Virus record (IMG/VR): IMGVR_UViG_3300046558_000114
Coordinates: 1 to 27,147 of that record
Reading direction: 5' to 3' (one strand)
Source: a virus
DNA: 27,147 bases
Shown here: positions 14,984 to 26,660 of the stretch, piece after piece
Layout: each line of letters begins with the position of its first letter
Position numbering within the stretch: position 1 is the stretch's first letter
Translations under genes and position numbers: made by a program
Notes under the pieces: generated by a model
The model's input: the letters and a program-made list of their open reading frames with translations, nothing else
Told to the model about the DNA's origin: nothing
The model's database searches: none

Positions 14984-16534
14984 TTACAGCACGCGCCAAT
15001 TGCCCACGGTGCGTTTCTTTTTAGCATTATCAGGCAAAGCGGCGCTCGCGTGGTAGCCCTGGCCGTAGCAGCGGAAGCCATCGGCGCCGTTGGAGGCCCA
15101 GTTGTGCAGCGGCACATTGGTGAACGTGTCGCGCTGCTTGTTGAAGGTGCGCACGTAGGAATCGAGCGCGCTGATGCCCTGCTTGCAGTTTTCCGCATCC
15201 ATCCAGACCGTCGGGAACCGTTCGCGCGTCAGTTCGATGCCGTTGTAAATATCCTTGGTGCGCGGCACCACCACAAAATTGTGACCGGGCAGCAGGCGCT
15301 CCAGGATCTCGAGCCGGGTTTCCGGCACTTCCTTGTCGGTCTGCATGCGCGCGTTGGCGTCGTGCGGCAGGTAGTGGGTGCCGAAGGTGTAGCCGGTGGC
15401 CAGCATGTAGTCGACAAAGTGCTTGAGCCCCTTGCCGTTTTCCTCGTAATACTCGATGAACTGGTGGCGCAGGCCGTTCTGCTGCATGAACCAGATGGTG
15501 GTCTCGTTGTTGGTGGACACCCCGAAGTCCCAAAACGTGTGCACCGGCAGCGCCGGATCCCACGGCACGCTGGTGATCCGGTTGTTCTGGCGCAGCCACA
15601 GCATCTGGCTCTCGTAGTACGCGCCCTTGAGCGCCACGTGGAACGCCTCTTCCGGGTAGCTGGGATTCTCCCGGTGCATGTCGCCCTTGAGCTTGCGGCT
15701 CTCGTTGACGTGCCACGCCTTCTGCGCGTCGTCCAGGTAGATCCCGCGCTCGGCCGCCAGCTTGTCGAAATAGATCGACTCGTTCGCCGTGATCTCGACC
15801 GTATCGGGATCAAGCCGGTTGGTCGGCTTTTGCCACCACGCGAAGAAATGCAGGCGGAACGAGCGCACCGACAGCGGCTTGCCGGCTTGCTGGGTCTCCA
15901 GCGCCTCCATCGCATAGTCGTGGAAGTAGCCTTCCTGGCCCTCGGCGGTCGATTCCACGAACACCATGTTGCCCACCGCCACCGCCGGGAACGCGCCCGT
16001 CACCACTTCCTTGGCGCGCTCGGGTGCCTTGCTGCAGATCTTGCCGAACTCGGACACGTGCAGGATCGTCATGGTGTCCGAACGCATCGACATGCCGACC
16101 TGGATCGAAGAGCCATTGCCCAGGCGCAATTCCGACTCGTTCAGCTTGGTGATCCCGACGGCATCGCGCAATTCCTTGGGCAGATCCATGTACGGGTTGC
16201 GGATCTTGTTCTGGAATAGCTTTTTTACATCATCGTCGGTCTGCGCGATGATGCCGAACCGGGTATTCGGCACGAACAGGCACTGATCCAGGCCCCAAAT
16301 GTCGATCGCCGTGGTGAACCCCATCTGCCGGGCCTTGAGGATCAGGTTCCAGTACCACAGTGAGTCGTAGAGCTCTTCCTGCTCGGCGTTCATGCGGAAC
16401 TTGATCTTGTTGCCGTTGGCGTCGGTGATCCAGTACAGGTTGTTGATGCGCCACTTCGGATCACTGAACTGCGCGAGCGACGCATTCCACAGCGTCAGCA
16501 GTTCCGGCGGGACGGCAAAGGCCAGTTCCGTCAT
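14984..16534 (-). CDS. Terminase large subunit (ATPase-nuclease)
   Basis: A 516-residue DNA-packaging motor. The ATPase half has a variant Walker A, KARQMGFTT (67-75), a Walker B with catalytic Glu at TILHVSEF (156-163, Glu162), and the coupling motif VFVESTAEG (191-199). The nuclease half shows three acidic sites of the RNase H-like fold: WDFG (Asp336), YLPHDAN (Asp392) and NGADGFR (Asp485). It cuts concatemers and pumps DNA through the portal ring. Length is usual for the family. The order small subunit, large subunit, two small genes, portal is conserved in N4-gp56-capsid podoviruses known to me only in outline. Confidence 0.96.
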   Translation of the reverse strand: MTELAFAVPPELLTLWNASLAQFSDPKWRINNLYWITDANGNKIKFRMNAEQEELYDSLWYWNLILKARQMGFTTAIDIWGLDQCLFVPNTRFGIIAQTDDDVKKLFQNKIRNPYMDLPKELRDAVGITKLNESELRLGNGSSIQVGMSMRSDTMTILHVSEFGKICSKAPERAKEVVTGAFPAVAVGNMVFVESTAEGQEGYFHDYAMEALETQQAGKPLSVRSFRLHFFAWWQKPTNRLDPDTVEITANESIYFDKLAAERGIYLDDAQKAWHVNESRKLKGDMHRENPSYPEEAFHVALKGAYYESQMLWLRQNNRITSVPWDPALPVHTFWDFGVSTNNETTIWFMQQNGLRHQFIEYYEENGKGLKHFVDYMLATGYTFGTHYLPHDANARMQTDKEVPETRLEILERLLPGHNFVVVPRTKDIYNGIELTRERFPTVWMDAENCKQGISALDSYVRTFNKQRDTFTNVPLHNWASNGADGFRCYGQGYHASAALPDNAKKKRTVGNWRVL

Positions 16535-17298
16535 TTCTTGATCGGCAGCTTGCCGCCGCCCTGGTCTTGCAGCGCCTGCAGGAACGCCTGCATGTCGCTG
16601 CCCTTCTGCTCGTTGTCGAGCTTATACAGACCTTTGAACTTGAACAGCTTTTCGAGCGCGCCCAGCTTGTCCACCAGCAGCATCTGGTAGCCATCCTTGG
16701 TCTGCTTGACGCCGGCATACAGCGCGCGCGCTTCCACCGACAGCTGACCGGTTGGCTTGTAGAACGCATCGCCCACGCCGTCGCCCCAGCAATGGGTGCA
16801 GTCCGGCACCGGCGCCTTGCGCGCGTCGTAGCCGATTCCGCCCTGCTCGTCAAAGTCGCCCAGGGCGTCGATCTGCTGCTGGTTGCTGCAGGCGCGCCGG
16901 TCTTTCTCGTACTGGCGCCGGGCCCGGCTCATTTCGGCCACCGTGCGCTGGTAGTCGTAATCGATGCCATAGCAGTGGCGGCAGCAGCGGCGCCGGAACT
17001 CCACCAGTTCGTTCACGTCGGCGGTGGCGATGCCCCACGCCTCGGCCACCACGCGCTCGGTGGTGACTTCCGTTTTCTTCTCCACCCGCGCCATCCGCTG
17101 CTGCACCAGCAGCTGCACGTCCTCGCGCGCCAGCAGCTTCGATGCCTGGGCGGCGGCACTGGACGTGGCATAGCCGGCCCGGATCGCGGCGGCCTTGCCG
17201 TTGAAGTCGACCGTGTATTCCATGGCGAAGCGGCGCATCTGGTCGCTCATGGCGCCGATGGTGCTCTTCGTTTTCGGTGCTGCCGCTTTGCTCGCCAT
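16531..17298 (-). CDS. Terminase small subunit
   Basis: A 255-residue protein of the Terminase_2 type, which recognises phage DNA and loads the large subunit. A helix-turn-helix covers residues about 16-65 (SDQMRRFAMEYTVDFNGKAA, then AIRAGYATSSAAAQASKLLA). A helical oligomerisation region follows (61-100). Residues 106-109 (CRHC) and 167-170 (CTHC) form two CxxC pairs separated by about 60 residues, with a basic tyrosine-rich helix between, which suggests a zinc-binding insert absent from the shortest family members. The C-terminus ends with a Gly/Lys tail. Its stop overlaps the large-subunit start (ATGA). Confidence 0.9.
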   Translation of the reverse strand: MASKAAAPKTKSTIGAMSDQMRRFAMEYTVDFNGKAAAIRAGYATSSAAAQASKLLAREDVQLLVQQRMARVEKKTEVTTERVVAEAWGIATADVNELVEFRRRCCRHCYGIDYDYQRTVAEMSRARRQYEKDRRACSNQQQIDALGDFDEQGGIGYDARKAPVPDCTHCWGDGVGDAFYKPTGQLSVEARALYAGVKQTKDGYQMLLVDKLGALEKLFKFKGLYKLDNEQKGSDMQAFLQALQDQGGGKLPIKK

Positions 17299-17546: not shown

Positions 17547-17878
17547 GGCGCTGCGTTCCAGTCTTTCGCGCTCGGGCTTTCCAGCGTGACCGTGCCGCTG
17601 GTCGGCTGCTCGTCTTTCTTGGCCTGCCCGACCTGGTACGGCATCCATTCGGCGTAGGCGCTCACCCACGTTGGCAGCGCGTCGTCCTGCTTCAGGTACG
17701 CGGAGCAGCGGGTCGACATGGTGCCGTTGGCGTCGAAGATGACCAGATTGACACAGTTGTCGTTGTGTACGGCAACAATGGTCGCGTCAAGCGGCTGATC
17801 GCCAATAACGGCGAGCGTGCTGCGTTCGCTGGCGCTCGGGCGATACCAGACCTTGCGGCCTACGGTGGGCTTAATCAT
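17543..17878 (-). CDS. Small conserved phage protein, unknown function
   Basis: A 111-residue protein. It opens with MIKPTVGRKVWYRP and has NDNCVNLVIFDANGTMSTRC (about 40-59), the pattern of small proteins frequently found near the head genes in podoviruses of Gram-negative hosts: 'VGxxVxYRP...a.I..V..D.cVNLvvfdanG'. The fold is probably a small beta barrel. Function is unknown. The start overlaps the spanin stop (ATGA at 17875-17878), and its own stop overlaps the KTSC gene in the same way. Confidence 0.78.
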   Translation of the reverse strand: MIKPTVGRKVWYRPSASERSTLAVIGDQPLDATIVAVHNDNCVNLVIFDANGTMSTRCSAYLKQDDALPTWVSAYAEWMPYQVGQAKKDEQPTSGTVTLESPSAKDWNAAP

Positions 17879-18423
17879 GGGGGAACTCCTTCGGTTGGTG
17901 GTGGGGTGGTGCATTGGACGCGCAGGCGCTCGTAGCGGTCTACGACTTCGGCGTGCTTGCGGATGGCGCTGTCGCCGCGGTCGGTGAGGCGGACAAGGTT
18001 TTCAGCAGTTCCCGGGTCAAGGTCGGCGTATCCTTGCGCGCCAGTTCCGCCGGCAGCGGGTCCACTTCCATCTGGCGCGACCGCACAAACCGCACCGACG
18101 ACGGGGATGCGCAGCCGGACAGCGCCGCGGCGCAGGTCAGCAATAAGGCGGTCAGTGGTTTGTTTCGCATCGGCTTGCTCCTGTTGGTAGTGGGTGAATG
18201 CCAGCTGGTCGGTGCGGCGCAGCGCGCGTTCGCGGGCCAGTACGTCGGCATCGGCGTCGGCCTGGGCCTGCACCGCCTTGGCCGTGCGCGTGACTTCGGC
18301 CAGCTGGTCGCGCTTGGTGGCCACGCGGTCGCCCCAGTGGTAGCAGCCGGCCGCCAGCGCCAACGACCAGACCAGACCGGCGGCCAGCTTGATCAGTGCG
18401 GCGCGCGGATCGGTGCACATCAT
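17875..18423 (-). CDS. Rz-like inner-membrane spanin
   Basis: A 182-residue protein with a single N-terminal membrane anchor (about 10-29, LIKLAAGLVWSLALAAGCYHW) and a long periplasmic coiled coil (about 35-100, heptads rich in Ala, Gln, Arg). A Pro/Gly-rich part follows (about 106-140), then a C-terminal helix. This is the plan of an i-spanin, which joins the outer-membrane o-spanin to fuse the two membranes at the last step of lysis. An Rz1-like lipoprotein gene is nested within it in another frame, which confirms the call. Two adjacent ATGs (18423, 18420) could start it; both overlap the previous stop. Confidence 0.85.
   Translation of the reverse strand: MMCTDPRAALIKLAAGLVWSLALAAGCYHWGDRVATKRDQLAEVTRTAKAVQAQADADADVLARERALRRTDQLAFTHYQQEQADAKQTTDRLIADLRRGAVRLRIPVVGAVCAVAPDGSGPAAGGTGAQGYADLDPGTAENLVRLTDRGDSAIRKHAEVVDRYERLRVQCTTPPPTEGVPP
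17940..18170 (-). CDS. Rz1-like outer-membrane lipoprotein spanin, nested in Rz
   Basis: A 76-residue frame wholly inside the inner-spanin gene in a different phase. It begins MRNKPLTALLLTCAAALSGC, a lipoprotein signal peptide with the lipobox L17-S18-G19-C20. The mature part is short, Pro- and Ser-rich, and free of membrane segments. Full nesting of Rz1 within Rz is a hallmark of lambda-type spanins. The start at 18170 is chosen for the signal peptide; in-frame codons further upstream lack a signal structure. Confidence 0.85.
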   Translation of the reverse strand: MRNKPLTALLLTCAAALSGCASPSSVRFVRSRQMEVDPLPAELARKDTPTLTRELLKTLSASPTAATAPSASTPKS

Positions 18424-18752
18424 GTGGCCCCCAGCATTGCCGCCGTTGCCCATGCCACTTTGCAGGCAAGGTGCAGGGCTTGGTCGGTGTTCAGCGAAAT
18501 GCGCTGTTCGCACTTGGCGAAGTCGATATAGGCGTGCAGCACGGTTTCGCCCAATGCCAGCAGCATGGAACCCGTCAGCAGCAGAACCATGCCGCCGTGA
18601 ATGATCGCGTGCGCTGCCAGCGCATGCGGCCAGAACTCGCTGCCGACTTTTGTATGGCGGTTCTTCGCCTCGGACAAAAACGGGCCTTGCAGCGGGTAGT
18701 CGGCCAGCATGTGTGCGAACACCAGCAGAAATAGCAGGGTCAGGAAGTCCAT
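18420..18752 (-). CDS. DUF3307-like membrane protein in the lysis cassette
   Basis: A 110-residue, strongly hydrophobic protein with 3 or 4 membrane segments. Conserved polar residues inside them follow the DUF3307 pattern: HMLADYPLQ (14-22), HALAAHAIIHG (43-53), HAYIDFAK (73-80) and a late DQALHLACKV (90-99). The role of this family is unknown. ATG 18752 is used: it overlaps the endolysin stop (TGATG) and has AGGGGG upstream; a start at 18773 would add seven residues with no ribosome site. Its place between endolysin and spanin suggests a lysis accessory, antiholin or second holin (inference). Confidence 0.75.
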   Translation of the reverse strand: MDFLTLLFLLVFAHMLADYPLQGPFLSEAKNRHTKVGSEFWPHALAAHAIIHGGMVLLLTGSMLLALGETVLHAYIDFAKCEQRISLNTDQALHLACKVAWATAAMLGAT

Positions 18753-19306
18753 CACGCTGCCCCCTGCAGGCATAGGTCGCGCTCATTGCCGCGGCGGGTG
18801 GTCAGCCCGGGCAGCGGCACCAGCACGCCTGCCACGCGCGCCTTGTTCCAGCGCGGCAGCTGCTCGCAAGCGGCGCTCAGGGTGCGCTTGGCGTCCAGCG
18901 TCTGCCCGGTCGCCGCATCCTTGTAGACGGCGCGCGCATAGCGGTACAGATAGCGCGCGGCGCTCGAATTGGCGGTGTCGCAGGCGATCGTCGGCCCCAT
19001 GTTGAACACGGCATCGCTGAACGCGGCCAGCACTTCGGGCGGCAGGCCCGGCGCGCAACGGTCCACGATGCCGACCGCCTTGCGCATGTCGTCGGTCATC
19101 CAGGCATCGCACTGGGCCAGCGAGTAGGTGACGCCCTTGCGCACATCGGCGCCGGTGTGGCCACGGCAGGCGGTCAGGATCCCGGGCGGGTCGTAGTAGG
19201 CAGTCTGCCGGATGCCCTCGGCCGGGATCGCCAGCGCGGTGGCCAGCGCCGTCGCCAGCGCCAGTTTGGTGCCGCGCCCGGCCAGCTTGTTGGGTTGGTC
19301 GGCCAT
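18752..19306 (-). CDS. Endolysin, lambdoid-type lysozyme (GH24)
   Basis: A 184-residue muramidase that cuts the glycan strands of peptidoglycan. The GH24 catalytic triad E-x8-D-x5-T is complete: Glu30, Asp39, Thr45 in EGIRQTAYYDPPGILTACRG. A hydrophobic N-terminal segment (about 14-27, KLALATALATALAI) is of the signal-arrest-release kind, so the enzyme may be exported by the Sec system and held in the membrane until lysis; the holin would then trigger rather than release it. Later family elements (AFSDAVFNMG, and LPGLTTRRGNERDLCLQG near the end) are present. ATG 19306 is chosen over GTG 19315; the first overlaps the holin stop with the upstream GGTGG as a weak ribosome site. Confidence 0.92.
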   Translation of the reverse strand: MADQPNKLAGRGTKLALATALATALAIPAEGIRQTAYYDPPGILTACRGHTGADVRKGVTYSLAQCDAWMTDDMRKAVGIVDRCAPGLPPEVLAAFSDAVFNMGPTIACDTANSSAARYLYRYARAVYKDAATGQTLDAKRTLSAACEQLPRWNKARVAGVLVPLPGLTTRRGNERDLCLQGAA

Positions 19307-19307
19307 G

Positions 19308-19562
19308 TCAGCCACCGATCGTCATGCGGCCCAGCATCGCCTTGAACTCGGCCCAGCCGCGCCACAGCTGCAGGGCGAACTTGGCCGCCACGATGGACAC
19401 GCCCATGTAGCGGAACACGTTGGCGCCCAGGTACGGCGCCAGCGCCGGCAACTGGGCCTCGGCGAACGCGATGATCTGGTCCGCGAACGGAAACAGCGTC
19501 AGCAGCAGCGCCCACACGTTGGTGCGCGCCAGCTGCAGCGCCTTCTTGAACTTGTCGAGCAT
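19308..19562 (-). CDS. Holin-like membrane protein
   Basis: An 84-residue protein with two hydrophobic segments, about 16-35 (VWALLLTLFPFADQIIAFAE) and 48-66 (NVFRYMGVSIVAAKFALQL), a short basic start (LDKFKKALQLAR) and a C-terminus ending KAMLGRMTIGG. Size, hydrophobic pattern and position just before an endolysin are those of a holin, which opens the inner membrane at the time of lysis. The N-in and linker region with APYLG fits small phage holin families of proteobacterial podoviruses. The stop codon overlaps the start region of the endolysin gene. Confidence 0.8.
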   Translation of the reverse strand: MLDKFKKALQLARTNVWALLLTLFPFADQIIAFAEAQLPALAPYLGANVFRYMGVSIVAAKFALQLWRGWAEFKAMLGRMTIGG

Positions 19563-19566
19563 GAAA

Positions 19567-19830
19567 CTACCTCCCTTTCATGGTTTGGGCAGCGATCAGG
19601 ATCCGGTCCAACTTGCTATTGATTTCTTTGAAGTCCTCGCGGTTACTGCGCCGCATTTCCGCGCGGTCTTCGTCCTGGCGGCGGTCGATCGTCACCTGAT
19701 TGGCGCGGCTTTCCTCGAGTACCGCCACGCGCTTGTCCATCACGCCATACGCCGCAAAGCCCGACACCATGAATCCCGCGAAAGTCAGGACGTGGCCCAG
19801 GTTGATGGTTGGATCAAAGCGCATCGTCAT
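19567..19830 (-). CDS. Membrane-anchored coiled-coil protein, lysis region
   Basis: An 87-residue protein with one membrane segment (about residues 11-30, LGHVLTFAGFMVSGFAAYGV) followed by a charged coiled coil (about 32-80, VAVLEESRANQVTIDRRQDE and beyond). This plan is common for small proteins next to phage holins, which may act as holin partners or antiholins; that is inference from context. No clear Shine-Dalgarno precedes ATG 19830 or the alternative ATG 19824. The stop is 4 bases from the holin-like gene start. It is the first gene after the double terminator. Confidence 0.75.
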   Translation of the reverse strand: MTMRFDPTINLGHVLTFAGFMVSGFAAYGVMDKRVAVLEESRANQVTIDRRQDEDRAEMRRSNREDFKEINSKLDRILIAAQTMKGR

Positions 19831-19852: not shown

Positions 19853-19886
19853 AAAAAAAATCCCCGCACCGGCAGCGGCGGCGGGG
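19853..19886 (-). terminator. Intrinsic terminator 2 in the late leader
   Basis: On the minus strand CCCCGC (19886-19881) pairs with GCGGGG (19867-19862), with a GC-rich loop, followed by one A and eight T (19860-19853). It lies only about 23 bases before the first lysis-region gene, so late transcripts from the promoter at 19978-20006 must read through it. Confidence 0.85.
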
Positions 19887-19891
19887 TGAGG

Positions 19892-19916
19892 GTTCGGCGC
19901 TGTCCAGGCGCCGAAC
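19892..19916 (-). other. Perfect 9-bp hairpin between the two terminators
   Basis: GTTCGGCGC (19892-19900) and GCGCCGAAC (19908-19916) with a 7-base loop. No T-run follows on either strand, so it is not itself a terminator. Its place in the late leader between two terminators suggests an RNA structural element or protein site. Confidence 0.65.
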
Positions 19917-19924
19917 AGAGCATG

Positions 19925-19950
19925 AAAAAAGCCCGGGGGTACCGGGCTTT
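19925..19950 (-). terminator. Intrinsic terminator 1 in the late leader
   Basis: AAAGCCCGG / CCGGGCTTT, 9-bp stem with a 5-base loop (19928-19950), followed on the minus strand by a run of six T (19930-19925). It is about 20 bases downstream of the predicted late start, and also about 80 bases after the stop of the helix-turn-helix gene, so it can end the upstream operon too. The AAA/TTT ends make it partly bidirectional. Confidence 0.85.
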
Positions 19951-19963
19951 GGCAAATTTCCTG

Positions 19964-19991
19964 CCGGAACAACCGTGATGCTATGTTCCGG
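19964..19991. promoter_or_regulatory. Operator-like inverted repeat over the late promoter
   Basis: CCGGAACA (19964-19971) and TGTTCCGG (19984-19991) form a perfect 8-bp inverted repeat with a 12-base centre. It covers the -10 and the predicted start point of the promoter at 19978-20006, the usual position of a repressor site. It could also fold as a hairpin, but only part of it would be transcribed from this promoter, which favours a DNA operator. Confidence 0.6.
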
Positions 19992-20006
19992 GATGCAAGT
20001 TGTCAA
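19978..20006 (-). promoter_or_regulatory. Strong promoter ahead of the lysis/late genes
   Basis: Minus-strand -35 TTGACA (20006-20001, perfect), 17-base spacer, -10 TAGCAT (19983-19978, 4 of 6). Predicted start near 19971. It lies between the helix-turn-helix gene and two intrinsic terminators that transcripts from it would have to pass to reach the holin, endolysin and head genes. Confidence 0.7.
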
Positions 20007-20030: not shown

Positions 20031-20282
20031 TCATGTGATGGGCGTCACATGGATGAAGCGGTCGCGCTTCTTGGGGCGCCGCTTGTGGCTGCTGCGTTCG
20101 CGCTCCTTGTTCATCGCTTCTTCAAAGGCTGCGGTGTCGCCATCGCGCCACAGCTTGTATAGCCGGCTGCGGTACATCGTGTTGTGCTTGATCCCGGCGC
20201 GCTGGGCCGCGGCGTAGGGCGTCACGCCCTGGAGCACCAGTTCCATCGCCTTCACGGTCGCGCCGCATGGTCGTCCTGCCAT
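20031..20282 (-). CDS. Small helix-turn-helix DNA-binding protein
   Basis: An 83-residue protein with a homeodomain-like helix-turn-helix at about residues 8-42: 'ATVKAMELVLQGVTPYAAAQ' then 'RAGIKHNTMYRSRLYKLW', the form also seen at the start of terminase small subunits and phage regulators. The tail (about 55-78) is very basic (RERSSHKRRPKKRDR), fit for DNA or RNA contact. It is the last gene before the late promoter and terminators, so it could bind sites there (inference). A true terminase small subunit with a fuller domain set occurs at 16531, so I prefer a regulatory role. Confidence 0.72.
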   Translation of the reverse strand: MAGRPCGATVKAMELVLQGVTPYAAAQRAGIKHNTMYRSRLYKLWRDGDTAAFEEAMNKERERSSHKRRPKKRDRFIHVTPIT

Positions 20283-22896: not shown

Positions 22897-22934
22897 CGCC
22901 AAACAAGTATATGCCAAGTTGCACTATATGCCAA
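22897..22934 (-). repeat. TTGGCATATA direct repeats over the promoter
   Basis: TTGGCATATA occurs twice on the minus strand, at 22934-22925 and 22917-22908, exactly 17 bases apart, so one copy covers the -35 and the other runs into the -10. A third partial copy (TTGGCG, 22902-22897) lies near the transcription start. The spacing and placement suit a repressor or activator binding site. Confidence 0.6.
22906..22934 (-). promoter_or_regulatory. Sigma70-type promoter
   Basis: Minus-strand -35 TTGGCA (22934-22929, 5 of 6 consensus), 17-base spacer, -10 TATACT (22911-22906, 5 of 6). Predicted start near 22899, about 40 bases before the ATG at 22857, which has a good Shine-Dalgarno (AGAGGT). It lies directly after an intrinsic terminator, as expected of a new transcription unit. 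Confidence 0.75.
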
Positions 22935-22993
22935 CATGGAAAATGTTGTGCACCGCGTTGATTGAACGCAAACCGTGTTCATTCAGCGACAAC

Positions 22994-23028
22994 AAAAAAG
23001 CGCCGGGCCAGCTGGTGGCTGCGGCGCT
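22994..23028 (-). terminator. Intrinsic terminator after the right-arm operon
   Basis: Read on the minus strand, AGCGCCG (23028-23022) pairs with CGGCGCT (23005-22999), with an inner GCCA/TGGC stem in the loop, followed by six T residues (22999-22994). It stands about 20 bases after the stop of the 442-residue gene and ahead of a new promoter, so it separates two transcription units. Confidence 0.85.
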
Positions 23029-23048
23029 CGCGCTGAAGTTGTCAGAGA

Positions 23049-24458: not shown

Positions 24459-24824
24459 TCAGATTGCGCGCCCGACGTGCTGCAGAATCTCGCGTTCAGC
24501 GTCCAGGATCGCGTGCGGACCGAATGGCGAATCGGTCACAATACTGCGAATCTCCGCCAAGTGCTTTGCCTTGCGCTCGATTTGGCGCTCGGTCAGGCGA
24601 CAGGGGCCGGCGTGCAGGTCATCCCAAAACTTGCGCTCCGCCCTGGCCAGCACGCCAGCTTGGTCGACTTCCACACGAGCACGGAATACCAGCAATTCCT
24701 CGGCACGCTCGCGCCGATGATGGCGCCGCTCGATCCACAGTGCGCCGACGAAGGCGATCGCCACGAAGATGGCCAGCGCCAGCAGCCCGGCGTCGTGCGC
24801 GCTCAGGGTTGGCAGGTCAGGCAT
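24459..24824 (-). CDS. Small single-pass membrane protein, unknown function
   Basis: A 121-residue protein with one clear membrane segment at about residues 13-31 (LLALAIFVAIAFVGALWIE), followed at once by a basic run (RRHHRRER) that would place the C-terminal part in the cytoplasm. The rest is a charged helical domain (RLTERQIERKAKHLAEIRSI). The ATG at 24824 gives the membrane segment a short N-terminal tail and overlaps the upstream gene by 8 bases; a longer in-frame form starting at 24905 lies wholly over the upstream gene and is rejected. No family is recognised. It ends about 80 bases before the next gene. Confidence 0.7.
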   Translation of the reverse strand: MPDLPTLSAHDAGLLALAIFVAIAFVGALWIERRHHRRERAEELLVFRARVEVDQAGVLARAERKFWDDLHAGPCRLTERQIERKAKHLAEIRSIVTDSPFGPHAILDAEREILQHVGRAI

Positions 24825-25365
24825 GGGCGGCCTCCGCACGGTAGTTGATGAACTTGCCCAGGTGGGCAAGCGCCAGCCGCTCCAGGTCGCGTGCGGTGTC
24901 GTCAATCACGGCGATGCCGGCCAGCAGGCGGTCGCGCGCCACGCCGAACTGCGCGCTGATCTCGCGCACGGTCCAGCCGTTGCCGCGGTCGCGCACCGCG
25001 ATGTAGTGGCGCGTCACCAGCTTGTCGACCACGCGGCGGTCGGCCAAATGGCGTTGCAGGTGCGGGTAGAACAAGTTCTGCAATTGCTCCACCGCGCCGC
25101 GCTTATCGTCCCAGTTGCGCGAATACGTGGCGGTCAGGGCCGCGCGCTCGCTGGCGATCAGGTTGCCGCGCAGCGCCAGCAGCAGCGCGGCGGCCTGCTC
25201 GCGCAAGCGTTCGGGCGATGGCCCCTCTCGCACCACCTCATACGGCACACCGGTATCATGCAATGCCATGTGCAGCGCGTTGCCGCTGCTGGTGGCGTCG
25301 CCCGGGTACTGCTCGAGCGTGAAAGCAAAGCGCAGCGCCTGCGCGGTGTCTTTGAAAATTTCCAT
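24817..25365 (-). CDS. Helix-turn-helix-like phage protein, candidate regulator
   Basis: A 182-residue, mostly helical protein. Residues about 128-160 (GWTVREISAQFGVARDRL) look like a helix-turn-helix, in which 'tVREIsaqfGVaRdrL' has the pattern of a recognition helix preceded by a glycine turn. The preceding region (ERAALTATYSRNWDDKRGAVEQLQ, about 78-101, and VDKLVTRHY) is helical and charged. Position at the end of an early-type operon, upstream of the late genes, and the size are compatible with a Q-like antiterminator or other late activator, but I cannot match it to a named family. A Shine-Dalgarno (GAGG) precedes the ATG. It overlaps the next gene by 8 bases. Confidence 0.7.
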   Translation of the reverse strand: MEIFKDTAQALRFAFTLEQYPGDATSSGNALHMALHDTGVPYEVVREGPSPERLREQAAALLLALRGNLIASERAALTATYSRNWDDKRGAVEQLQNLFYPHLQRHLADRRVVDKLVTRHYIAVRDRGNGWTVREISAQFGVARDRLLAGIAVIDDTARDLERLALAHLGKFINYRAEAAHA

Positions 25366-25380: not shown

Positions 25381-25926
25381 TTATTTGCTGTATTCCCGGA
25401 TGGTCCACTGGCCATCCTTCCCCTTGGTGCACTTGAACACGCGGAACCATGGCAGCACTTCCGCGCACAGCTTGATTTTCAGTTGGCCCTTGTCGGTCGT
25501 GAATCCCCCCTTGGTTTCGTGCAGCTGCAGTTCGCGCCCGGCCGTCATTACCAGAAAGTCGGGTTCATAGAATGTGTTGTCGGCCAGCCGCACGCGGATA
25601 GGGTGAAAGCGCCAGTCCAGGATATCGCCGGCCGCCTTCCGCGCGTCGAGCAGCTGGGCATAGGCGGCTTCGGTCTTGTTCATCGTGCCCTTGGCCAGCC
25701 GCCCCAGCGCATAGAACGCTTCACCGGGCCCGGACATTCCCGCTTGCGCGGGAATCGGCAACTTGACCGATTTGGCAAGTTCGGCCTTGGTTGCCTCGAT
25801 GCTGTGCCGAGCCCCTTGAAGATAGTCGTACGGGGGTGGCGGATCATCGCCTGGGCGCTGGCGACAGCGCGCGTTGAATTCGGCCAGTTGTTCCGGTGTC
25901 CACCTGACTGCGCCGCCCTTACCCAT
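25381..25926 (-). CDS. DUF1064-type PD-(D/E)XK nuclease
   Basis: A 181-residue protein with the signature of the DUF1064 phage family, thought to be PD-(D/E)XK endonucleases. Visible active-site elements are KTE (Glu86), EPDF (Asp123) and ETKG (Glu137, Lys139), in the right order and spacing for the fold. The last 40 residues (KIKLCAEVLPWFRVF) match the family's closing strand-helix. The N-terminal 65 residues are a variable extension, with a Pro-rich run near 29-33. The start at 25926 overlaps the methyltransferase stop (TAATG). Such nucleases may act in recombination or in breaking host DNA; the substrate cannot be read from the sequence. Pairing with a methyltransferase makes a self/non-self DNA role worth considering, but this is inference. 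Confidence 0.85.
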   Translation of the reverse strand: MGKGGAVRWTPEQLAEFNARCRQRPGDDPPPPYDYLQGARHSIEATKAELAKSVKLPIPAQAGMSGPGEAFYALGRLAKGTMNKTEAAYAQLLDARKAAGDILDWRFHPIRVRLADNTFYEPDFLVMTAGRELQLHETKGGFTTDKGQLKIKLCAEVLPWFRVFKCTKGKDGQWTIREYSK

Positions 25927-26660
25927 TACGCCGCCTCCTTCGTCAGTTGCGCCATGCGTTGCTCTGCAATGGCGAATTCCTCCGCGTACTTCTCGATCCC
26001 GATGAAGCCGCGCCCGGTGTTCCAGCATGCCACGCCGGTGGTGGCGCTGCCCATCGCGTTGTCCAGCACCAGTTCGCCCGGGTTCGAGTAGGTGCGGATC
26101 AAGTATTCCATCAGCGCCAGCGGTTTTTGCGTCGGGTGCAGCTTGCTGCGCTGCTTGTCGCTGGAGAAGAACTGCACCGTGCGCGGGTAACGGCTGGTTG
26201 AGTCGTAGCTGATTGTTGCCGCCGCATCCCCATAAACCTCGCTTGACTGGCTGCGCTTCGATGTTTTGCGCGCATGGCCGTGCGTCATTTGCGGGTTGTA
26301 GGTCGGCTGGCCGTTGCAGAACACCAGCACCGATTCGTGCGCTCGCAGCGGTGCGCGCTTCGAGTTCAGGAACCCGGTCGCGTTGCCTTTCTCCCATACC
26401 CAGTCATACAGGAACCATTCCGGGTTGCTCATCACCAGCGCGCTGGTGAACGGCTGGCTGGCGGTCAGCACGATGGCGCCGCGCGGCTTGATGACGCGCC
26501 GATACTGCTCCCACATCGGCGCCAGCGGGATGATCGAATCCCATTTGCAGCGCGTGGTGCCATACGGCAGGTCGGCCAGAATCAGGTCGATTCTGGCCTC
26601 GGGTAGCTCGCGCATCCGTTCGAGGCAGTCGCCAAACAGCAAGGTCGCGGCGCCTTTCAT
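25926..26660 (-). CDS. DNA methyltransferase (N6-adenine/N4-cytosine type)
   Basis: A 244-residue protein that should transfer a methyl group from S-adenosylmethionine to an exocyclic amino group of adenine or cytosine in DNA. The catalytic motif IV appears as DLPYG (residues 30-34), a phage variant of DPPY. The conserved HPTQKP lies at 175-180 and the SAM-binding motif I (VLDNAMGSATTGVA, about 198-211) comes after it, so the motif order IV to I is that of the beta class (N6_N4_Mtase family). In motif I the usual DPF is DNA and GSG is GSA. The ATG at 26660 is chosen because it overlaps the upstream stop (TGATG) and because upstream residues look non-coding. It is followed directly by a nuclease-like gene through a TAATG overlap. 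Likely role: protecting phage DNA from host restriction or marking it for regulation (inference). Confidence 0.92.
   Translation of the reverse strand: MKGAATLLFGDCLERMRELPEARIDLILADLPYGTTRCKWDSIIPLAPMWEQYRRVIKPRGAIVLTASQPFTSALVMSNPEWFLYDWVWEKGNATGFLNSKRAPLRAHESVLVFCNGQPTYNPQMTHGHARKTSKRSQSSEVYGDAAATISYDSTSRYPRTVQFFSSDKQRSKLHPTQKPLALMEYLIRTYSNPGELVLDNAMGSATTGVACWNTGRGFIGIEKYAEEFAIAEQRMAQLTKEAA

Follow-up and report, generated by a model that had tools for sequence, protein, structure and literature searches.

The late promoter pR' of phage lambda gives a terminated 6S RNA in the absence of the Q protein. In Pseudomonas aeruginosa, lysis genes are controlled by AlpA, a processive antiterminator which binds between the -35 and -10 elements, requires polymerase to pause in a sigma-dependent manner, and constricts the RNA exit channel (PMC7969949, PMC9371919). 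AlpA acts at alpB and at PA0807, the latter having two terminators, and its fold resembles that of the phage 21 Q protein (21Q) without sequence similarity between them (PMC7969949, PMC9371919). It is a bacterial lysis regulator, for which a prophage origin has been proposed (PMC7969949). Since Q-type antiterminators share a fold and almost no sequence, late control is unknown for most uncultured phages, and we found no report of AlpA-like late antiterminators in phages in the open-access literature.

The DNA analysed here, called the window (or WIN in comparisons), is the IMG/VR virus record IMGVR_UViG_3300046558_000114 at its full length of 27,147 bp. With a probability of about 0.77, we consider that it carries the late operon of a podovirus-like phage controlled by processive antitermination of the Q/AlpA type. 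The sequence-only reading of this DNA had likened the region to lambda pR'/tR', and at the level of anatomy the likeness holds, both in gene order and in a promoter-terminator unit found in five lineages.

Layout of the late operon and its leader

The virion genes of the window match those of podovirus-like phages (portal phrog_156, internal virion protein phrog_511, and terminase), and its large terminase subunit (TerL) is about 40% identical to those of Burkholderia DC1, Serratia Parlo, and Pseudomonas Itty13. A DNA similarity search detected no close relative in the annotated phage collection, and a TerL search of the genome contigs with one query sequence gave no match. All genes discussed lie on the minus strand, in the order resolvase, Q-like gene, middle genes, promoter, terminators, lysis, terminase, and portal, and the main features are as follows.

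25381-26397, minus strand: Holliday junction resolvase-like protein (C-terminal part), marking the Q slot; phrog_190 at E 6.5e-17, no Pfam match
24817-25365, minus strand: 182-aa AlpA/Q-like protein, candidate late antiterminator, directly after the resolvase gene
20031-20282, minus strand: 83-aa helix-turn-helix (HTH) protein, its gene immediately upstream of the promoter and beside it in 5/5 lineages
20001-20006, minus strand: -35 hexamer TTGACA, identical in L002, L049, and L058
19984-20000, minus strand: 17-bp spacer, candidate loading element; lambda Q and AlpA bind there in their own promoters (PMC7969949, PMC9371919)
19978-19983, minus strand: -10 hexamer TAGCAT; TAGCAT, TAGGAT, TAGAAT, and TACAGT in relatives
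19957-19969, minus strand: TTCC-GGCA-GGAAA element at about +2 to +14, present in 5/5 lineages as TTCC-N4-G(G/A)AAA; a small 5' RNA hairpin or a DNA dyad
19925-19950, minus strand: intrinsic terminator T1, 9-bp stem including A-U pairs, six T; conserved with changed pairs
19892-19916, minus strand: middle hairpin, perfect 9 bp, without a T run
19853-19886, minus strand: intrinsic terminator T2, eight T
19567-19830, minus strand: lysis cassette, first gene (87 aa), with a membrane segment and a coiled coil recognised by eye; phrog_24782 (function not assigned), weak spanin match
19308-19562, minus strand: putative holin by position, 84 aa; a 62% identical gene in G001
18752-19315, minus strand: endolysin; PF00959 at E 8.7e-20, phrog_7
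17875-18786, minus strand: Rz-like spanin; phrog_1327 at E 3.1e-19
14984-17298, minus strand: small and large terminase subunits, the next genes of the late operon

The promoter, lying on the minus strand, agrees with the consensus at 10/12 positions and its start is predicted at about 19971/19970; downstream of 20006, the coding strand of the window holds no other promoter-like site. T1, formed by AAAGCCCGG-TACCC-CCGGGCTTT (19950-19928) with its six T at 19930-19925, begins at about +22 and is followed by the middle hairpin, GTTCGGCGC-CTGGACA-GCGCCGAAC (19916-19892). T2 consists of CCCCGC...GCGGGG (19886-19862), one A, and eight T (19860-19853), and ends 22 bases before the lysis cassette. 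These promoter, hairpin, and terminator elements had all been named in the sequence-only reading, and they were confirmed to the base. An inverted repeat, CCGGAACA-N12-TGTTCCGG (window 19964-19991), spans the -10 and the start and is a candidate operator; it is partly retained in L058 and L149 and absent from L002 and L049.

The leader folds at -54.6 kcal/mol (z = -4.39), a stability equalled by 0/200 shuffles, and the minimum-energy fold contains T1, the middle hairpin, and T2; terminated RNAs of about 45 nt or about 115 nt are predicted. Because a standard terminator scan missed T1 and T2, a fold-based scan of the minus strand of the whole window was used, giving four terminator-like sites with T1 and T2 among them; under a strict terminator test of the same strand three stems pass, and these two are again included. 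No Rfam family fits the leader. The open reading frame of the first lysis gene starts at 19830, relatives using the in-frame ATG at 19824, and its 87-aa product gave no tblastn match in the annotated phages. Within the middle operon stands a second terminator, whose position is kept in L058 and L052, and in the window two overlapping promoter-like sites follow it, upstream of a 125-aa gene (window 22998-23029 and 22906-22952).

Conservation of the promoter-terminator unit

Relatives were collected through the endolysin, the first lysis gene, TerL, and the HTH protein, and the set is therefore one assembled by phage-gene searches. It comprises five lineages, namely the window, L002 (on the same contig as L052 and L059, and nearly identical in L060), L058, L049/L050, and L149. 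In the four other lineages, the promoter-T1 unit is found at the equivalent position, between the small HTH gene and the late genes, with T1 beginning about 54-58 nt after the -35. The columns conserved in all five are the TTG of the -35, the TA...T of the -10, TTCC-N4-G(G/A)AAA, and T1, while most of the spacer, the T1-T2 leader sequence, and the sequence of the middle hairpin have diverged. T1 itself shows changed pairs, C-G to U-A and A-U to G-C, as judged by eye, MAFFT misaligning the 5-nt loop of the window. The window, L058, and L149 have T2, which is weak in L002 and missing from L049; the promoter of L149, TTGCTT-17-TAGAAT, has a weak -35.

TTGACA-17-TANNNT occurs once per record in G001 (64 kb), G002 (62 kb), G003, and G004, always at the late-operon site, with a control pattern found 0 times, and G001 has a promoter with at least 10/12 consensus positions only at this site. 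At about 8001 in L061/L062, the same lysis cassette (first gene 73% identical) follows other genes without the promoter-terminator unit, and the unit is thus a feature of where the late operon begins rather than of the lysis genes themselves; the cassette of L061/L062 represents a module swap. The distant relative G016 carries an AlpA-like gene, has only a terminator and no promoter-T1 unit before its terminase, and bears a promoter-terminator pair elsewhere (31.3-31.4 kb). An intein-like insertion of about 230 residues interrupts the TerL of G016 (L123:10985-13342) close to the Walker A region.

Spacers differ among the lineages. ACTTGCA is shared by the window and L058, and GGAACG of L002 lies near the AlpA position; the P. 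aeruginosa AlpA-binding element (ABE, GGGACG) is not conserved in the spacers compared. A good -10-like pause sequence in the first transcribed bases exists in L049 (TATATT) and in the more remote locus L176 (TAAATT), is weak in the window and L002, and is lacking in L058 and L149; in the window, L058, and L149, three of the five lineages, it is poor or absent.

In dinucleotide shuffles TTGACA-(16-18)-TANNNT is expected 0.03 times per strand. A promoter with two terminators arose in 0/100 shuffles, and a promoter with T1 in 0/200 local shuffles for each of the window, L002, L058, and L049. The promoter scan alone is near chance (4 found, 1.6 +/- 1.2 expected) and the terminator scan missed T1 and T2, hence significance rests on co-occurrence and conservation. 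When the whole collection was scanned for a promoter with TTCC-N4-GGAAA, a terminator followed only in L049/L050 and L058, all other matches being in unrelated phages. Eight of these (L090, L092, L093, L094, L099, L102, L104, and L105) show strong sigma70-type promoters and then, immediately past the start, ATGTTCC-N4-GGAAA, which forms the same small hairpin as here, without a terminator, L102 having two such promoters 350 bp apart. It is possible that ATGTTCC-N4-GGAAA is a common 5' RNA element of phage promoters, the matches having been selected by a pattern that itself includes the element.

The candidate antiterminator and the helix-turn-helix protein

The product of the gene at 24817, already singled out in the sequence-only reading, has an AlpA/Q fold. 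Its relatives in G001, G003, and G016 are 38-42% identical, and an AlphaFold model (AF2, four-row alignment) reached pLDDT 86.8 and pTM 0.83. In a Foldseek search of the PDB with this model, the AlpA chains 7xyb_G and 7xya_G came first (E 2.8e-4, with TM 0.59/0.64, and 1.3e-3; probability 1.00, TM 0.59-0.67 over both), the next match having an E of only 0.94, and 21Q was not present among the best 50 matches listed. Against the viral models of BFVD, four matches had a probability of 1.00, one of them named "Antitermination protein Q". Searches of sequence families gave sub-threshold matches only, with no Pfam match above the cut-off, and PF06530 (Phage_antitermQ) was found in 0/14 records and in no relative. 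Neither the sequence profile of the protein against PDB sequences nor phmmer with a remote homologue retrieved 7xya/7xyb, and tblastn against the annotated phages gave no match. Because sequence profiles connect the protein to neither AlpA nor Q, the AlpA link is one of fold only, which agrees with the literature on AlpA and Q (PMC7969949, PMC9371919). The model and the gene order support a candidate regulator of AlpA/Q fold whose gene lies in the Q slot. The AlpA-like profile found no gene in G002 (62 kb), which has the promoter-T1 unit and may carry another Q type, nor in L149, where the contig may start too late. In G002 the gene after the resolvase encodes a protein of 149 aa.

Profile searches over 399 genomes of the order of Hydrogenophaga (Burkholderiales) revealed remote homologues of the 182-aa protein, located after NinB-YbcO(-RusA) in prophages, at least two of them being followed by a promoter, a terminator, and terminase. 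In L176, where NinB/YbcO-like genes lie upstream (by eye), the Q-like gene overlaps at its 3' end with TTGACA-17-TAAAAT, after which come a terminator and terminase. In L174 a promoter, T1, and T2 lie about 1 kb beyond the Q-like gene and precede a methyltransferase and terminase; for both loci, promoter plus terminator came up in 1/200 shuffles each. L177 has a weaker promoter, a terminator 172 nt further on, and then terminase, and in L175 the Q-like gene is immediately followed by two terminators, the promoter being weaker and less certain. The head modules of these prophages belong to different terminase families, making simple shared descent of one locus unlikely. An inverted repeat with TTTTG at its centre lies in the promoter spacer of G016 (L124:11325-11436) and likewise in those of L174 and L177, and it is possibly a binding site of the AlpA/Q-like proteins. 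One Burkholderiales genome, G270 (L156-L160, L173), holds at least six AlpA/Q-like copies, those examined being ordered NinB, YbcO, RusA, Q-like. Cargo behind its Q-like genes varies (including a SIR2_2 protein at L157:2891-4435, a DUF4365/TPR protein at L160:584-4591), and the site looks like a slot for cargo or defence genes.

The model of the 83-aa HTH protein (AF2, pLDDT 81) has no significant match among PDB folds, its sequence has only sub-threshold matches to families, and tblastn found no match in the annotated phages. Short HTH proteins related to it are encoded by other phages that have no promoter-terminator unit of this kind. The 83-aa protein accompanies the unit in 5/5 lineages and may act as a co-regulator or itself confer specificity.

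Proposed antitermination, its alternatives, and known systems

We infer the activity, the loading site, the pause, and the order of events in the following manner. Host RNA polymerase with the main sigma factor would start constitutively at about 19971, as the promoter suggests. Without a phage protein it would, from the structure of the leader, stop at T1 after about 45 nt, and polymerase passing T1 would mostly stop at T2, before the lysis genes. The 182-aa protein, whose gene follows that of the resolvase in the middle operon, would load onto polymerase held at the promoter-proximal region and, in the manner of AlpA and phage 21 Q, narrow the exit channel for RNA; the modified polymerase would then read through T1, T2, and later stops into the lysis, terminase, head, and tail genes. 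The model, and with it the interpretation given in the sequence-only reading, is supported by the verified anatomy and its conservation, by the absence of another strong consensus promoter on the coding strand of the late region, by the AlpA-like fold, by the gene order at the Q slot, and by the prophage loci. Points against this model are an AlpA match by fold only, G002 without an AlpA-like gene, G016 without the unit, the poor pause element, the ABE that is not conserved, and the early T1.

The sequence-only reading had allowed that the terminators simply end the upstream operon, with the promoter as the odd part. T1 and T2 do stand at the end of the middle operon, and the promoter would then be a chance match or a weak one of no consequence, the late genes being driven from elsewhere. 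A promoter scan not far above chance and the sole terminator retained before the terminase region of G016 would suit such an arrangement, which is nonetheless very unlikely because in all five lineages T1 follows the promoter at a constant distance, while most of the spacer has diverged; in addition, the coding strand carries no other strong consensus promoter for the late genes, and shuffles fail to give a promoter with terminators. It is also unlikely that specific regulation comes from the HTH protein (20031-20282) and not from the AlpA-like protein, through binding of a dyad at the start (GGAACA...TGTTCC or TTCC-N4-GGAA) and control of initiation or read-through, with T1 and T2 blocking leak. 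The HTH gene lies directly upstream of the promoter in 5/5 lineages, including G002 which has no recognisable AlpA-like gene, and TTCC-N4-G(G/A)AAA is conserved at the start; on the other hand, its model resembles no known antiterminator, related proteins exist in phages lacking such a unit, and L002 and L049 do not keep the GGAACA half of the dyad.

A leader RNA that modifies polymerase without a phage protein, as HK022 put does, had also been envisaged, and in keeping with it the transcript begins with several hairpins, including the conserved 5' mini-hairpin. The presence of a Q-like protein and the lack of an Rfam fit make this mechanism less likely, a strong terminator at +22 leaves little room for a put-like structure, and the sequence of the middle hairpin is not conserved; we regard it as highly improbable. 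There is likewise only a very slim chance that the promoter serves to make a short terminated regulatory RNA, the late genes being reached by read-through from upstream. Terminated RNAs of about 45 or 115 nt are predicted and the 6S RNA of lambda offers a precedent, whereas the T1-T2 leader sequence is not conserved among relatives, and by analogy with lambda a short terminated RNA is compatible with antitermination.

Beyond this locus, it is conceivable, though rather doubtful, that many Betaproteobacterial phages and prophages control their late genes with AlpA-fold antiterminators from one large, unannotated family, and that in this branch loading depends on the 5' TTCC-N4-GGAAA together with a partner HTH protein and not on a -10-like sigma pause. 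In any case, a DNA signature (a promoter leading into terminators) and a fold search together point to an unnamed protein family, which is a way to find more of them; the window offers a concrete promoter-protein pair, and AlpA gains fold-level phage relatives in the expected place.

Compared with AlpA at alpBCDE and PA0807 of P. aeruginosa (PMC7969949, PMC9371919), the likeness lies in the fold of the regulator and in a sigma70 promoter that leads into terminators, one at alpB and two at PA0807, ahead of genes for lysis or the cell wall. The window differs in that its protein has no detected sequence similarity to AlpA, the GGGACG element is not conserved, T1 lies at about +22 compared with +54 for tB, the operon is that of the late genes of a phage, whereas AlpA acts on a chromosomal lysis operon, and there are an extra HTH gene and a conserved TTCC-N4-GGAAA after the start. 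With lambda Q at pR'/tR', and with Q21 and Q82, it shares the series of resolvase/nin region, Q, late promoter, terminator, lysis, and terminase, as well as late genes placed behind an early terminator, but its protein lacks a PF06530 or PHROG match, genes lie between the Q-like gene and the promoter, and the two terminators stand much closer to the start. HK022 put is alike in the hairpins at the 5' end of the transcript; no similarity to it was found, and the window has a protein candidate. Bcep22-like podoviruses (Lessievirus, Parlovirus, Ittyvirus) share the terminase (about 40% identity), the portal and internal virion protein families, and genome size, yet in those examined, Parlo and Itty13, the promoter before terminase has no terminator after it and no lysis genes are found there. 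The protein family of the 182-aa product had no Pfam, PHROG, or NCBIfam name, while the overall design is familiar, and the loading signal of the window system is possibly new.
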